Below are positions 14,008 to 50,717 of a DNA stretch of 64,000 nt, piece after piece; within the stretch, counting starts at the first letter, position 1; each line of letters opens with the position of its first letter. This DNA is from Alloacidobacterium dinghuense. GTDB lineage: Bacteria; Acidobacteriota; Terriglobia; Terriglobales; Acidobacteriaceae. The stretch spans positions 1,612,001 through 1,676,000 of the forward strand of contig NZ_CP060394.1 of NCBI RefSeq assembly GCF_014274465.1, read 5' to 3'. The notes beneath the pieces were generated by a model. That model was given only the letters and a program-made list of their open reading frames with translations, had not been told where the DNA came from and searched no databases. A program made the translations under genes and the position numbers.

Positions 14008-14030
14008 GAGGAAGAATCTCATCGATGAAG

Positions 14031-14381
14031 AATCAGCCTCACAGACAGCGTCTTGCGGCACGAAAATGGGTGCCCCATCCTTTGCGTAGCAAAGGGTGGG
14101 AAAGCACGAACCCGAATCAGCCTCACAGACAGCGTCTTGCAGCACGAAAATGGGTGCCCCATCCTTTGCGTAGCAAAGGGTGGGAAAGCACGAACCCGAA
14201 TCAGCCTCACAGACAGCGTCTTGCAGCACGAAAATGGGTGCCCCATCCTTTGCGTAGCAAAGGGTGGGAAAGCACGAACCCGAATCAGCCTCACAGGACA
14301 GCGTCTTGCAATACGAAAAACGGGTGCCCCATCCTTTGCATAGCAAAGGGTGGGAAAGCACGAACCCAAATCAGCCTCACA
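14031..14381. repeat. 84-bp tandem repeat, four units plus a partial fifth
   Basis: Units start at 14031, 14115, 14199 and 14283. The first three periods are exactly 84 bp; the last unit is 86 bp and diverged, and a 13-bp remnant follows at 14369. Each unit carries CCCATCCTTTGC and GCAAAGGGTGGG around a GTA/ATA loop, a 12-bp hairpin with one wobble pair, preceded by GGTG. Because 84 is a multiple of three, long spurious frames run through it on both strands. The stop codon of the NUDIX gene lies inside the last remnant. A single relative sits at about 14911-14958. It resembles bacterial REP/dispersed palindromic elements. Confidence 0.9.
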
Positions 14382-46752: not shown

Positions 46753-47049
46753 ATGCCTCCGGCATTCTTCAATCTTCGAGCGCGGTCTCTGGCGCGTGGA
46801 ACCATTCTAGTCCTTGGAAGTCTGGTGATGTCGTTTCTGCTGTCAGGCTTCCCCAACACACATCCCTCGTTGAAACTCATGATCCCGGCCTTCGTGGCTC
46901 TCTATGGAACGTACGATACGGCGCGCTGTCTTCGGCTGCGTTGGAGCTTTTATCACGGCGGGGTACTGCTTCTTCTTTACACGGATGTCATGGCTCTGGC
47001 GATGATTTTTTTCCTGTTGCTCTATCCGTATGCGCAATGGATTCAGTAA
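46753..47049 (+). CDS. Small membrane protein of unknown function
   Basis: 99 residues with three hydrophobic stretches ([58 protein letters not shown]). Divergent from scoB, with only 16 bp between the two starts. An in-frame GTG at 46738 would extend it by five residues. Family not recognised; coding status is plausible but unproven. Confidence 0.5.
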
Positions 47050-47241
47050 GCCTGACTGTGACAAATAGGGGAAGGCATGTATGACGGCGTGTCAAAAGTG
47101 CATGTTAGTCGGTAAATCCTACCGCGGACGACGGGAATAGGTTGTATGCCTCGTCTCGCTATCCGGTACGAGGTGGGGTGTTTCTGCCGCTATCACAGTG
47201 CAGAAAACATGCCAAATTACTCCTTTTTACATATCCATCAG

Positions 47242-47264
47242 CTAATTCCCGAAATGGGAATTAG
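47242..47264. promoter_or_regulatory. Perfect inverted repeat in the repeat-gene promoter region
   Basis: CTAATTCCC (47242-47250) and GGGAATTAG (47256-47264) are exact complements around GAAAT. It could be a regulator operator or the terminator of the small membrane protein gene upstream; there is no T-tract, so an operator is slightly favoured. Confidence 0.35.
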
Positions 47265-47401
47265 GCATAACCTTAGGTACATCATATAGTTACATCCCTA
47301 AGTAACTTCGGAAGTAATAACACTTATAAGTCAATACTGAAATGGGTAACAAGTTGTTGTTTCAAAAGGCTTTTCGATCATTTACCTTTTTGGCATAGAG
47401 A

Positions 47402-47439
47402 ATGCTCCGCTAGGCTGTTCAAGTGTCGCCGGGGAGCAT
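47402..47439 (+). promoter_or_regulatory. Possible structured 5' leader of the repeat-protein mRNA
   Basis: ATGCTCC (47402-47408) pairs with GGAGCAT (47433-47439), with an inner GGC/GCC pairing around TGTTCAAGTGTC. Downstream, TAGGC and GCCTA can pair, as can AGGCA and TGCCT, giving mutually exclusive hairpins about 30-60 nt before the ribosome binding site. It matches no riboswitch class I know. A cis-acting RNA is only a hypothesis. Confidence 0.25.
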
Positions 47440-47499
47440 AGGCTCATCTAGAAGTCAGGCATCTGCCTAGTATCCCTCAATTCCAAAGGAGAGTTTCGG

Positions 47500-48189
47500 A
47501 TGAAAGTTTGGGCACAAAACATTTTGTGTGTTTTTTCTGCTTTGATTCTCAGCGTAGCCACAATTTATGCACATGCCGGAATTACCGGCAGTGACCCGCG
47601 TCCCCCGAAGAGTTCAGTAGTCGTAGCTGGAATCACGGGCAGTGACCCGCGCCCGCCCAATAGTTCAGTAGTCGTTGCCGGAATTACCGGCAGCGACCCG
47701 CGTCCGCCGAAGAGTTCAGTAGTCGTTGCTGGAATCACGGGCAGTGATCCCCGCCCGCCCAAGAGTTCAGTAGTCGTCGCTGGAATCACAGGCAGCGATC
47801 CACGCCCGCCCAAGAGTTCAGTAGTCGTTGCTGGAATCACCGGCAGTGACCCGCGTCCCCCCAAGAGTTCAGTCGTCGTTGCTGGAATCACGGGCAGCGA
47901 TCCGCGTCCGCCCAAGAGCTCGGTAGTCGTAGCTGGAATCACCGGCAGCGATCCGCGTCCCCCGAAGAGTTCGGTTGTCGTTGCCGGAATTACAGGCAGT
48001 GATCCGCGCCCGCCAAAGAGCTCGGTAGTCGTTGCCGGAATTACGGGTAGTGATCCGCGTCCGCCCAAAAGCTCAGTAGTCGTTGCCGGAATTACGGGTA
48101 GTGATCCGCGCCCGCCAAAGAGCAACGTAGTCGTCGCCGGGATTACCGGTAGTGATCCACGTCCGCCGAAGAGCAACCTGACTGCATAA
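47500..48189 (+). CDS. Secreted protein of twelve 17-residue GITGSDPRPPKSSVVVA repeats
   Basis: 229 residues: a 26-residue signal peptide ending ATIYAHA, then eleven 17-residue units and a final 16-residue unit ending NLTA. The first unit begins exactly after the AHA cleavage site, so the mature protein is nothing but repeats. Each unit alternates a hydrophobic strand (VVVAGIT) with a polar, proline-rich turn (GSDPRPPKSS). Codons vary widely at third positions between units, but residues change only in unit 2 (K to N), units 11-12 (S to N) and the tail. No cysteine, no known domain. Ideas: multi-copy peptide precursor, fibre or surface adhesin, or periplasmic spacer. The family is not recognised. 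Confidence 0.85.
   Translation: MKVWAQNILCVFSALILSVATIYAHAGITGSDPRPPKSSVVVAGITGSDPRPPNSSVVVAGITGSDPRPPKSSVVVAGITGSDPRPPKSSVVVAGITGSDPRPPKSSVVVAGITGSDPRPPKSSVVVAGITGSDPRPPKSSVVVAGITGSDPRPPKSSVVVAGITGSDPRPPKSSVVVAGITGSDPRPPKSSVVVAGITGSDPRPPKSNVVVAGITGSDPRPPKSNLTA
47578..48186 (+). repeat. 51-bp tandem coding repeat, 12 units
   Basis: Eleven 51-bp units plus a last 48-bp unit, each starting GGA/GGG for glycine. Units differ at many wobble positions (ACC/ACG/ACA for Thr, GAC/GAT for Asp, CGT/CGC for Arg, CCC/CCG/CCA/CCT-type changes for Pro) while the peptide is almost constant. So the array is not a fresh expansion. A long antisense frame exists only because 51 is divisible by three. Confidence 0.9.
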
Positions 48190-48236
48190 AATTCTTTTGA
48201 TCTGATAACTACAAAAGTGCGGAGTAAGATCATGCT

Positions 48237-49013
48237 GTGAAGTTTCCCCTCGCAGCTCTGGTCCTCTGGGCAGCTGGCTTTGTTGAACATGCTGGCGTTC
48301 TGCTTGTCCTGATTGTGCGTAAGCGCTGGAGGACGTTTCCGATTTTTACTGCGTTGATGGGGTTCAACGCGCTCCGCACAATTGTTCTGGTTCTGCTTTG
48401 GAGGCAAGGCAACACCCATCATTATTGGATTGCTTACTATTGGGCCTCCATTATTGACCTTGCACTCCAACTGGGCATCATTTTTGAGCTTGCGCGCGTC
48501 GTTTTGAAGCCTACCGGCACCTGGATTCGCGATGCCGGGTACACATTTCTACTGTGCGGCCTCGCGGGCGCCGCTGTTGCGGCTGGGATTGCGTACTTTA
48601 TCCATCCCATCTCTGACAACACGTTCGATGTCTGGGTGGAAAGAGGGCAGCTCTTTTCAGCCATGCTGACCCTGGAACTGTTCGCATCCATGCTGTTTGC
48701 CTCTACGCGGCTGGGTCTCCTGGGAACCAGCCACGTTATGCGACTTGGACAAGGATGGGCTGTCTGGGCGATCGCTGACCTGGTATCTGAAGGAATCTAC
48801 AGCCATTTCGGCCCGGATTGGCATTATTTAGGACTGATAGATAGCATTAGAATTTTGGCATATCAAGCGGTTACTATTTACTGGATAGTAACCCTCTGGC
48901 GTCCGGAGCCGATTCGTCGTACACTGTCTGCGGAAATGCAGGCCTATCTGGACGGCCTTCATGTACAATTGCAGTCTGATTTGAAACAAGTAAGCAGTAT
49001 CGAGAAACATTAA
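48237..49013 (+). CDS. Seven-helix integral membrane protein of unknown function
   Basis: 258 residues with about seven membrane helices, starting with FPLAALVLWAAGFVEHAGVL. Conserved-looking features are the FVEH motif in helix 1, FPIFTALMGFNALRTIVLVL in helix 2, WIAYYWASIIDLALQLGIIF in helix 3 and a C-terminal amphipathic tail (LSAEMQAYLDGLHVQLQSDL). I associate this layout with a common uncharacterised acidobacterial membrane family; no catalytic motif is visible. GTG start with a GGAG site 12 bp before it. It follows the repeat gene by 47 bp and precedes the next gene by 6 bp. Confidence 0.7.
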   Translation: MKFPLAALVLWAAGFVEHAGVLLVLIVRKRWRTFPIFTALMGFNALRTIVLVLLWRQGNTHHYWIAYYWASIIDLALQLGIIFELARVVLKPTGTWIRDAGYTFLLCGLAGAAVAAGIAYFIHPISDNTFDVWVERGQLFSAMLTLELFASMLFASTRLGLLGTSHVMRLGQGWAVWAIADLVSEGIYSHFGPDWHYLGLIDSIRILAYQAVTIYWIVTLWRPEPIRRTLSAEMQAYLDGLHVQLQSDLKQVSSIEKH

Positions 49014-49019
49014 ACTGCT

Positions 49020-49547
49020 ATGGCATATCTCGCGTTAGGTCTGTTTGGTTTCGTCGCGGTCGTTGCGCTCATTTATGCGCATGCACGGTCGCGAAAGCTG
49101 CTGGCCAAGGACTGGCAATCGCTGGTCACATCGATTGAACCCATGCACATGCGGGGACTTGAGATGGTTGCGCTCGATCATCTGGAGCCGCAAAAGAATC
49201 AGTTACGTCTAGAGCCCGACGAAATCTGGGGGCTGGTTGGTGGTAAGGAAGGTTTGCGGCGGATGGAGCACAACGCAGACTTAATGATTGCGCTGGCTGC
49301 CTACGTTCGCAACTGGAATTACGATCAGGCCATCATTGTGGCGGAGCGCATTCGCCATGACTCGGTCCAGTTGAAGCGGGCAGTTCGTAGAATTCGTTGG
49401 AACGCGCATATGCGCCGCGGTCAGATACGGATTCCGTTTTATGTTCATCAGGCGGCTGCGGCGTATTACCTGATGACCAAGCGTCTGCTGTCTCTCTACG
49501 AGACGAACCAATACCTTCTCTATCCGGTGCTGGCCGAGGCCCTGTAA
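49020..49547 (+). CDS. Membrane-anchored helical protein of unknown function
   Basis: 175 residues: an N-terminal membrane helix (YLALGLFGFVAVVALIYAHA), then a soluble, arginine-rich, mostly helical domain. Notable stretches are EPDEIWGLVGGKEGLRRMEH, YVRNWNYDQAIIVAERIRHD and VQLKRAVRRIRWNAHMRRGQ, ending with AAAYYLMTKRLLSLYETNQY. Family not recognised. It lies 6 bp after the seven-helix protein and is followed by a strong terminator, so the two (perhaps with the repeat gene) form one transcript. Confidence 0.7.
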   Translation: MAYLALGLFGFVAVVALIYAHARSRKLLAKDWQSLVTSIEPMHMRGLEMVALDHLEPQKNQLRLEPDEIWGLVGGKEGLRRMEHNADLMIALAAYVRNWNYDQAIIVAERIRHDSVQLKRAVRRIRWNAHMRRGQIRIPFYVHQAAAAYYLMTKRLLSLYETNQYLLYPVLAEAL

Positions 49548-49573
49548 AGAGCAGCTTATCTGATTTCAAGCTT

Positions 49574-49604
49574 GAAAAGCCCGGGTTCAGTTCCCGGGCT
49601 TTTC
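49574..49604. terminator. Bidirectional terminator between the membrane-protein gene and mtnA
   Basis: GAAAAGCCCGGG (49574-49585) and CCCGGGCTTTTC (49593-49604) form a perfect 12-bp stem with a 7-nt loop. The A/T base of the stem supplies a T-tract on both strands, suiting the convergent genes on either side. Confidence 0.9.
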
Positions 49605-49658
49605 TGCGTTGATATGGCGGAGCCTACCCCGAATGGCTCGCATGATGGATCAGCCTGC

Positions 49659-50717
49659 TTATCGGGCGGTTGGAATTGCCTCCAGCTCAGCCAAAGATTC
49701 CGCGTAGGGTGCGCGCAGCACGCCTCGTTCTGTAATGATGGCGGTGACGTATTTTGCCGGGGTTACGTCGAAGGCGGGGTTTTCGATGCCAACGCCGTGC
49801 GGAGTCAGCTGCTTGCCGGCATGGTGCGTGACCTCGCGCTCCGGGCGCTGTTCAATGGGAATGCCGTCGCCTGTTGGCGTGGCTGTGTCGATGGTGGACC
49901 AGGGCGCGGCCACGTAAAAGGGAATGCCGTGCTCCTTGGCCAGAATCGCTACGTTGTAGGTGCCGATCTTGTTGGCTACATCGCCGTTGGCAGCGATGCG
50001 GTCAGCGCCGACGACGACAGCTTTGATTTTCCCCTGGCGCATGAGGCTGGCAGCCATGTTGTCGCAAAGAACGGTTGTCGGAATGCCGTCGTGCATCAGT
50101 TCCCACGCTGTAAGACGAGCACCCTGCAGGAATGGGCGTGTTTCGTCGGCGTACACGTGGATAGCGCGTCCGCGTTCAACGGCAGCGCGGATGACACCGA
50201 GAGCCGTGCCGTAGCCGCAGGTGGCCAACGCTCCGGCATTGCAGTGGGTGAGCACCCCACCGGTTTCGGGAAGCAGTTCGGCGCCGTTTGCGCCCATGGT
50301 TTTGCACGCGGCGATGTCTTCGTCGTACATGACCTGAGCTTCCTTGATGAGAGCGTCGGCGATCCCTTCGCGAGTGATTCCGGGCTTTGAGGCAAGCGCA
50401 GAGAAGAGATCACGCATATGAGCGATGGCCCAGAAGAGGTTCACGGCCGTAGGACGCGTGGCGGCGAGCGTGTTGCAAATGGCGCCAAACTCTGTGGTCA
50501 GGTCGGAGATGCTTGTCGCTTTGCTCTCTTTCACTCCCAATGCGACGCCCATTGCCGCGGAAACACCAATGGCGGGCGCGCCGCGGACTACCATGGTGGT
50601 GATGACGTCAGCTACCTGCCGGTAGCTGGTGGCAAGCACATAGGTCTCTTCAAGCGGAAGCTTCGTCTGGTCCAGAAAGCGGACGCCATCCGCAGTCCAT
50701 TCAAGTGTAGGAATCAT
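49659..50717 (-). CDS. mtnA: S-methyl-5-thioribose-1-phosphate isomerase
   Basis: 352 residues, the normal MtnA length. N-terminal [20 protein letters not shown] (44-63), the catalytic cysteine C159 in [20 protein letters not shown], and the catalytic aspartate D239 in [20 protein letters not shown] are all in place. It converts 5-methylthioribose-1-phosphate to the ribulose form in methionine salvage. The related eIF2B-like family shares the fold, but these catalytic residues favour MtnA. No other mtn gene is in the window. Confidence 0.95.

Follow-up and report, generated by a model that had tools for sequence, protein, structure and literature searches.

The yeast alpha-factor with its receptor Ste2 is the closest described pair of a repeat peptide and a seven-transmembrane (7TM) protein, and Agr, ComX and RRNPP are the peptide pheromone systems of Gram-positive bacteria. 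To our knowledge, a peptide/7TM pair with multi-copy precursors has so far been known only from eukaryotes. Fungal Kex2-processed repeat proteins have been described as precursors of repeat peptides (PMC7329392). In this study, we analysed a window of Alloacidobacterium dinghuense (the whole stretch of 64,000 nucleotides, positions 1,612,001 to 1,676,000 of contig NZ_CP060394.1), in which one gene has the layout of the alpha-factor and Kex2-processed precursors, that is, a signal peptide and then a short variable core that recurs many times and is under purifying selection. As in the alpha-factor/Ste2 pair, its partner is a 7TM protein with a predicted N-out/C-in orientation. The literature available as open-licence papers yielded no peptide signalling system for the Acidobacteriaceae, an abundant soil family, and no description of the three-gene module reported here.

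The repeat gene and its peptide unit

The ORF at 47500-48189 (+) encodes 229 aa, namely a 26-residue signal peptide ending in YAHA and, immediately after it, an array of twelve 17-residue units that ends with a shortened one (GITGSDPRPPKSNLTA). The array was detected independently by TRF (period 51, 11.8 copies, 85% matches, score 738), which agrees with the original prediction that the mature part of this secreted protein consists only of twelve repeats. The peptide is identical in nine of the first 11 units, the exceptions being K11N in unit 2 and S13N in unit 11, and unit 12 carries S13N and a terminal LTA. The pS and pN of units 1-11 (NG86) were 0.52 and 0.016, respectively, a ratio of 0.03 and thus far below 1. 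Because the silent sites have drifted far and pN is tiny, we consider that the peptide has been kept constant, and the predicted selection on a fixed peptide with wobble divergence is borne out.

One antisense frame reads ATTTEL[L/F]GGRGSLPVIP, and the wobble changes of the array are nearly silent there too, so the codon pattern alone is insufficient to decide the strand. What fixes the sense strand is the AAGGAG site, together with the signal peptide and the homologues that other genomes have on that strand. The antisense frame is open through the entire array (47565-48470, 301 aa), is conserved because the wobble positions coincide, and is probably functionless; its product was rejected as a candidate, as a signal peptide is not evident in it and the frame starts inside the next gene. 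A DNA or RNA element was also rejected, since the single Rfam match was below gathering level and outside the array, and the promoter and terminator counts were shuffle-like. The promoter scan of 47000-49700 gave three hits against a shuffle mean of 2.1, i.e., not above the shuffles, and Rfam gave nothing at gathering level in the region upstream of the module, where alignment with Acidobacterium sp. S8 showed conserved patches. The window contains one other tandem array, at 14030-14381 (84-bp unit, 4.2 copies, 97% matches).

No convincing family was found for the repeat protein in Pfam, NCBIfam, PHROGs or PADLOC, and the unit is still without a described family, as had been expected. For the three window proteins together, PADLOC matched no anti-phage defence model at E 0.1, PHROGs gave marginal matches only (E 0.016-0.064), and NCBIfam gave stray single-member matches only.

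Table 1. Coordinates of the module and its upstream region within the window.
Feature	Position	Strand	Basis
Intergenic region 5' of the module, presumed promoter region	47050..47499	+	sequence, alignment
Shine-Dalgarno-like AAGGAG	47486..47491	+	sequence
Signal peptide MKVWAQNILCVFSALILSVATIYAHA	47500..47577	+	sequence reading
Twelve units GITGSDPRPPKSSVVVA, last ending NLTA	47578..48186; stop 48187-48189	+	TRF, sequence
Proposed receptor, a 7TM protein of 258 aa with a predicted N-out/C-in orientation and its helices arranged as in GPCRs	48237..49013	+	
Proposed transducer, a partner of 175 aa with a single TM helix at the N-terminus and a helical domain that is probably in the cytoplasm	49020..49547	+	

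A three-gene cassette in the Acidobacteriaceae

The repeat gene is followed after 47 nt by the 258-aa ORF and, after a further 6 nt, by the 175-aa ORF. The original prediction had missed this operon, which is conserved and headed by the repeat gene, and which therefore points to the likely function of the repeat protein. The cassette consists of a small secreted Pro-x-Pro (PxP) precursor, a 7TM protein of ~258 aa and a partner of ~175 aa. A profile search with the 7TM protein (E 1e-6) gave matches in 313 of 398 family genomes and in 213 of the 256 high-quality ones. When the phylum was sampled, 31 of 297 genomes had a 7TM match, and 30 of the 31 (the window's own included) belong to the same family; the one match outside it (G566, L190) was weak, and a scan upstream of it revealed no peptide gene. 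A total of 110 7TM loci were read, of which 30 were taken automatically and 80 were picked by hand from the best listed 7TM-profile matches, passing over those with stops, at contig ends or of lower rank. The 175-aa homologue was directly after the 7TM gene in 92 of these loci, within ~0.6 kb in six, and absent there in 12. The profile search with the 175-aa partner itself gave five loci.

By a strict automatic rule (a start with a ribosome site, a basic N-region, a hydrophobic core, a small-x-small site and PxP in the mature part), 94 of the 105 distinct 7TM genes with enough sequence upstream are preceded by a secreted PxP ORF, compared with nine of 190 control ORFs (every ORF of at least 150 aa from six contexts, spurious ones included), and six of these nine were the module itself. 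Among the 11 misses, L056, L134 and L147 have a precursor by eye; near the remaining eight of the 105 genes no precursor was seen, and L089 has one farther upstream of a tandem 7TM pair. Adjacent paired 7TM genes occur in one locus each at L089, L142 and L153, an arrangement that suggests local duplication of the putative receptor. In nine wider contexts (eight genomes, with both systems of this genome), only the 7TM gene and the partner were common to all. No other ORF of at least 110 aa was present in three or more of the nine, except three repeat precursors and antisense shadows, and these contexts contained no linked protease gene and no common exporter or modification gene. Within the operon, we recognised neither a kinase or cyclase nor a transcription factor. 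The three-gene set is undescribed and found across the family, with the repeat peptide as its variable part.

The direct search of the 398 family genomes with the repeat protein gave a match in eight, including the window's own, and those in G147, G208 and G253 were chance matches; of the nine places found, L004, L007 and L008 were rejected as relatives because they have no such repeat, and L002 as the antisense of the array itself. A search with the unit pattern gave 17 genomes, with a secreted repeat precursor only in G000, G070, G218 and G262. The units of the true relatives are GIIGSLPRPAGTLQAK (G017), VSGTDPRPKGTIVAA (G070, Acidobacterium sp. S8), VSGSDPRPA (G218) and GVTGTDPRPQ (G262, uncultured Terriglobus), and homologues of both downstream genes come immediately after the precursor in all four; in G070, the array is divided between two contigs and the membrane genes begin the second. 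The single-protein search of general genome contigs matched 218 stretches without a confirmed relative, and the search of viral contigs confirmed none.

The commonest core of the family precursors is xxG[ST][DN]PxP, and the further PxP classes include GPMTPAPTP and SPATPRPLP. Two or more core copies were present in at least 33 of the 97 precursors and four or more in 22, the maximum being 19, and at other loci the core is multiplied by tandem genes, for example at L051 (five), L119 (seven) and L054 (three). Of the seven rows of the 7TM clade to which the window belongs, four have repeats, namely the window (12), L053 (10), L046 (8) and L052 (4), two have the tandem genes just named (L051 and L054), and L055 has a single gene. 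In a quick tree of 91 7TM proteins (91 of the 97 loci, with repeat and tandem labels assigned by hand and L080 and L134 added as repeat-bearing), the state of four or more repeats required at least eight changes. Since repeats and tandem genes alternate in one clade, we believe that selection on peptide number fits better than a long polymer. Among the functions offered in the original prediction, a multi-copy peptide precursor or processed signal gains support from this multiplication of the core, and a fibre-forming or ice/surface-binding protein is not favoured, because the copy-number pattern fits short peptides better.

The pN was below 0.1 in 17 of 22 arrays, with units of unrelated cores; for example, the pS and pN were 0.37 and 0.000 in L156 (19 copies), 0.42 and 0.017 in L144 (16 copies), and 0.39 and 0.000 in L133, respectively. 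The pN was high (0.14-0.42) in the other five arrays (L049, L053, L137, L138 and L145); at least part of this comes from units of mixed length, which do not stay in the fixed register. In addition, several arrays are too young to inform (pS 0.09-0.18). The junctions of 20 repeat precursors chosen by hand were scored by reading the table. In 13 of the precursors, most or all of the internal junctions carried Ala or Ser at -1 and a residue at -3 that was small or aliphatic; two precursors had this pattern partly and five did not. The internal junctions had no long hydrophobic stretch. The predicted likeness of the junctions to signal-peptidase sites thus stands for most of these precursors and fails for five, and cutting at them is a putative step. 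A hydrophobic C-terminal stretch (at least 1.5 KD) was found in 38 of 62 single-copy precursors compared with 0 of 22 precursors with four or more copies. Therefore, the product of many single-copy precursors may stay in the membrane and not diffuse. The 64 single-copy tails listed have mostly no basic cluster beyond the hydrophobic stretch.

The genome of the window carries a second full module (L192/L082, G000:C1, ~5.78 Mb) with the unit FGPGGGMPSPIGQTGLIA in ~12 copies (pS 0.21, pN 0.037), and a third, distant 7TM-like gene (L191), for which an upstream scan showed no peptide gene. A divergent group of ~300-aa 7TM proteins (L171-L189) comes with secreted precursors at most loci. These precursors are small, carry two Cys close to their C-terminus (e.g., MPIPMCDPDDPNACGM) and in some cases are arranged in tandem; no 175-aa partner was seen within the ~1.5 kb examined, except for a weak match at L179.

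Copies were also observed on mobile elements. In the 309-kb Tunturiibacter phage Tunturi_5 (PP885688.1, L197), gp204 is a homologue of the 7TM protein (profile E 6.6e-37). An unannotated secreted-looking ORF lies immediately upstream of its gene and overlaps it, the two covering 2631-2942 and 2905-3834 of L197. This ORF contains TVCDPTDPSC, resembling the Cys-type host precursors, and the neighbour gp205 is annotated as an ADP-ribosyltransferase. The 175-aa partner as a query had no match among the phage collection. The main text of the phage paper (PMC11924767) has no mention of gp204 or ORF204, quorum, signal peptide or transmembrane. The plasmid pACPOL1 of Acidisarcina polymorpha (L198, 2209-3846) carries a module-like triple of a precursor with AVGGTNPRPGRG, a 7TM gene and a 175-aa-like gene, all annotated as 'hypothetical protein'; its 7TM gene is perhaps broken, because the first helix is in another frame. 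A second plasmid, NZ_CP030844.1, also has a 7TM match.

Fold of the 7TM protein and covariation with the peptide core

The AlphaFold2 model of the 7TM protein (pLDDT 92, pTM 0.85) has seven long helices and a C-terminal helix. The model supports an orientation with the N-terminus outside and the C-terminus inside, and the charge bias agrees, with 3.2, 3.3 and 1.9 K+R per inner loop compared with 1.2, 0.9 and 1.0 per outer loop in 103 sequences. Conservation in the TM region was 0.50 for the inner half vs 0.40 for the outer half, and that of the loops was 0.53, 0.54 and 0.62 inside vs 0.34, 0.30 and 0.35 outside. With Foldseek, GPCRs and rhodopsins were the top matches of the model, with a best E of 0.028 and none below 0.001. 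The 50 VIA-align matches shown were titled GPCRs or GPR155 (one just 'a receptor'), with an rmsd of 3.4-4.5 over 181-199 residues and Z 11.1-12.7, and helical bundles can reach Z ~13 by arrangement alone. Because the Foldseek matches are weak and the Z values lie within the range of common bundles, we claim a topology and not a kinship with GPCRs. The 258-aa window protein matched no Pfam family, one stray GPCR-named match (BILF1, E 0.0032) occurred among the 103 members, and the sequence-profile search of the PDB with the 7TM protein gave no match. In the model of the 175-aa partner (pLDDT 88), a single TM helix is accompanied by a helical domain; a fold assignment for it was not used, as it had weak helical-bundle matches only (FAT, vinculin and designed bundles, Z at most 9.7).

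The covariation analysis was run on 84 of the 97 core-bearing loci, namely the ones found in the 7TM alignment as well as in the partner alignment, and the divergent ~300-aa 7TM group was left out. The 7TM alignment held 103 of 109 distinct sequences (omitted were the near-duplicates L064 and L108, and L125, L143, L154 and L158, which are of odd length), and the partner alignment held 94 of 95 (L108 omitted); the window stands for L047 in both. Regular expressions were used to extract the core segments, of which a few (L080, L109, L113 and L134) are doubtful. In pairwise distances, the 10-residue core followed the outer half of the 7TM protein, given the inner half and the partner, with a partial r of 0.34 (0 of 2000 permutations), in Mantel tests on related sequences that correct for descent only in part. 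The corresponding values for the inner half and the partner were 0.02 (p 0.36) and -0.01, respectively. The relation with the outer half persisted in rate-matched columns (0.344) and in the xxG class alone (0.322). As a control, the signal peptide of the same precursors tracked the partner most (0.19), and the outer half (0.10) and the inner half (0.12) weakly.

Random splits of the columns equalled the outer/inner contrast in 25 of 1000 cases. The first per-column test favours outer columns because it was conditioned on the inner half. With the partner-only control, the median per column was 0.060 for the outer half vs 0.028 for the inner half (p 0.0009, the columns not being independent), and of the 20 columns with the strongest tie to the core, nine were outer and nine inner. 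In the same-genus pair of the window and S8, the units differ in sequence and length, most flanking genes are 66-90% identical, and the identities of the partner, the 7TM inner half and the 7TM outer half are 86%, 59% and 47%, respectively. We regard the evidence that the core would meet the outer face of the 7TM protein as real but moderate, and the way in which the two vary suggests recognition of the peptide by the membrane protein.

Proposed function and comparison with known systems

We consider it somewhat better than an even bet that the repeat gene is a ligand gene, and that the operon is an undescribed bacterial signalling module of a secreted multi-copy ligand, a 7TM receptor and a cytoplasmic transducer. 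From the sequence, Sec would export the precursor and signal peptidase would remove the leader. The repeats would be cut at the small-residue junctions (between ..VVVA and GITG..), giving about twelve 17-residue peptides. The core xxG[ST][DN]PxP may then bind the 258-aa 7TM protein at its outer half, as the covariation suggests, and the 7TM protein may hand its state to the partner, whose helical domain is probably cytoplasmic, a step that gene pairing, the conserved inner face and the topology point to. The dose would be set by the copy number of the core, via repeats or tandem genes. As the peptide diverges from species to species together with the outer face, the likeliest use would be species-specific signalling, either from cell to cell or to self. 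A fuller version is held more tentatively, at rather less than an even chance: a cell-cell system of the Acidobacteriaceae with alpha-factor-like Pro-x-Pro peptides, a 7TM protein of GPCR topology and a cytoplasmic transducer, co-diversified into private channels (two in this genome), present on plasmids, and with a receptor homologue and its own peptide-like gene in at least one jumbo phage.

Insects have multi-copy Pro-rich antimicrobials such as apidaecin, and the peptide might likewise be a Pro-rich, bacteriocin-like antimicrobial, with the 7TM protein and its partner as self-immunity. It would fit that the secreted peptides are Pro-rich, hypervariable and multi-copy, that membrane proteins are encoded beside them, and that the outer face varies with the peptide. 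However, bacteriocin loci are sporadic in distribution, unlike a 7TM family found in most high-quality genomes of the family; the nine contexts share no exporter or modification gene, PADLOC was empty, and immunity alone leaves the conserved inner face and the partner unexplained, so we think this unlikely. It is likewise improbable that the 7TM protein and the partner process, anchor or export the peptide in an AgrB-like or exosortase-like manner, with the receptor elsewhere. The genes do form one apparent operon, and the single-copy PxP precursors with a hydrophobic tail recall PEP-CTERM proteins, but the 103 7TM sequences have no Cys conserved above 70%, a sole His at that level (H166, 0.70) and one near-invariant charged residue (E84); none of the 103 members matched the AgrB or exosortase Pfam models at E 0.01, and the single-copy tails mostly lack the basic cluster.

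If the product were a small envelope or surface component with no signal role, whether a structural polymer or a tethered subunit of a 7TM complex, the purely repetitive product would be accounted for, single-copy forms could remain membrane-anchored, and cutting, which is a putative step, would be dispensable. Against this, intragenic repeats and tandem short genes interchange within one clade, and the fast divergence of the core suits recognition better than structure; we judge such a role quite improbable.

If the signalling reading is true, this would be a bacterial pair of peptide and 7TM receptor in which the precursors are multi-copy. The 97 precursors, for 84 of which both membrane proteins are aligned, would make its specificity readable and testable by swaps between soil strains, and the phage copy would open the question of phage use of the same signal. 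Even as immunity or processing, an unnamed conserved three-gene module in hundreds of genomes merits annotation.

Compared with the Kex2-processed repeat proteins, the window unit has no KR or RR dibasic sites, and its junctions are of small residues. The pair also differs from alpha-factor/Ste2 in being bacterial and in having the peptide and 7TM genes in one apparent operon; the 7TM protein has no sequence match to Ste2 or the GPCRs of the PDB, and no G protein is known. As in Agr, ComX and RRNPP, a small peptide gene adjoins the gene of the proposed receptor and both diverge together, but no histidine kinase, TPR receptor or AgrB-like peptidase was recognised in the module, which has a 7TM protein and a helical partner instead, along with a multi-copy precursor. 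AgrB is further set apart by its catalytic Cys and His, which are not conserved in the 7TM protein, and by its Pfam model, which matched none of the 103 members. The single-copy precursors share PxP (some PEP) followed by a hydrophobic stretch with the PEP-CTERM/exosortase system, but mostly have no basic tail, and their 7TM protein has no conserved Cys and no Pfam match. Microbial rhodopsins and GPCRs share the predicted seven-helix N-out/C-in bundle. Unlike the rhodopsins, the window protein has no retinal Lys in TM7 (200-221), and no Lys is conserved above 70% in the 103 sequences; unlike the GPCRs, it matches no GPCR family, and the likeness may be one of common arrangement only.
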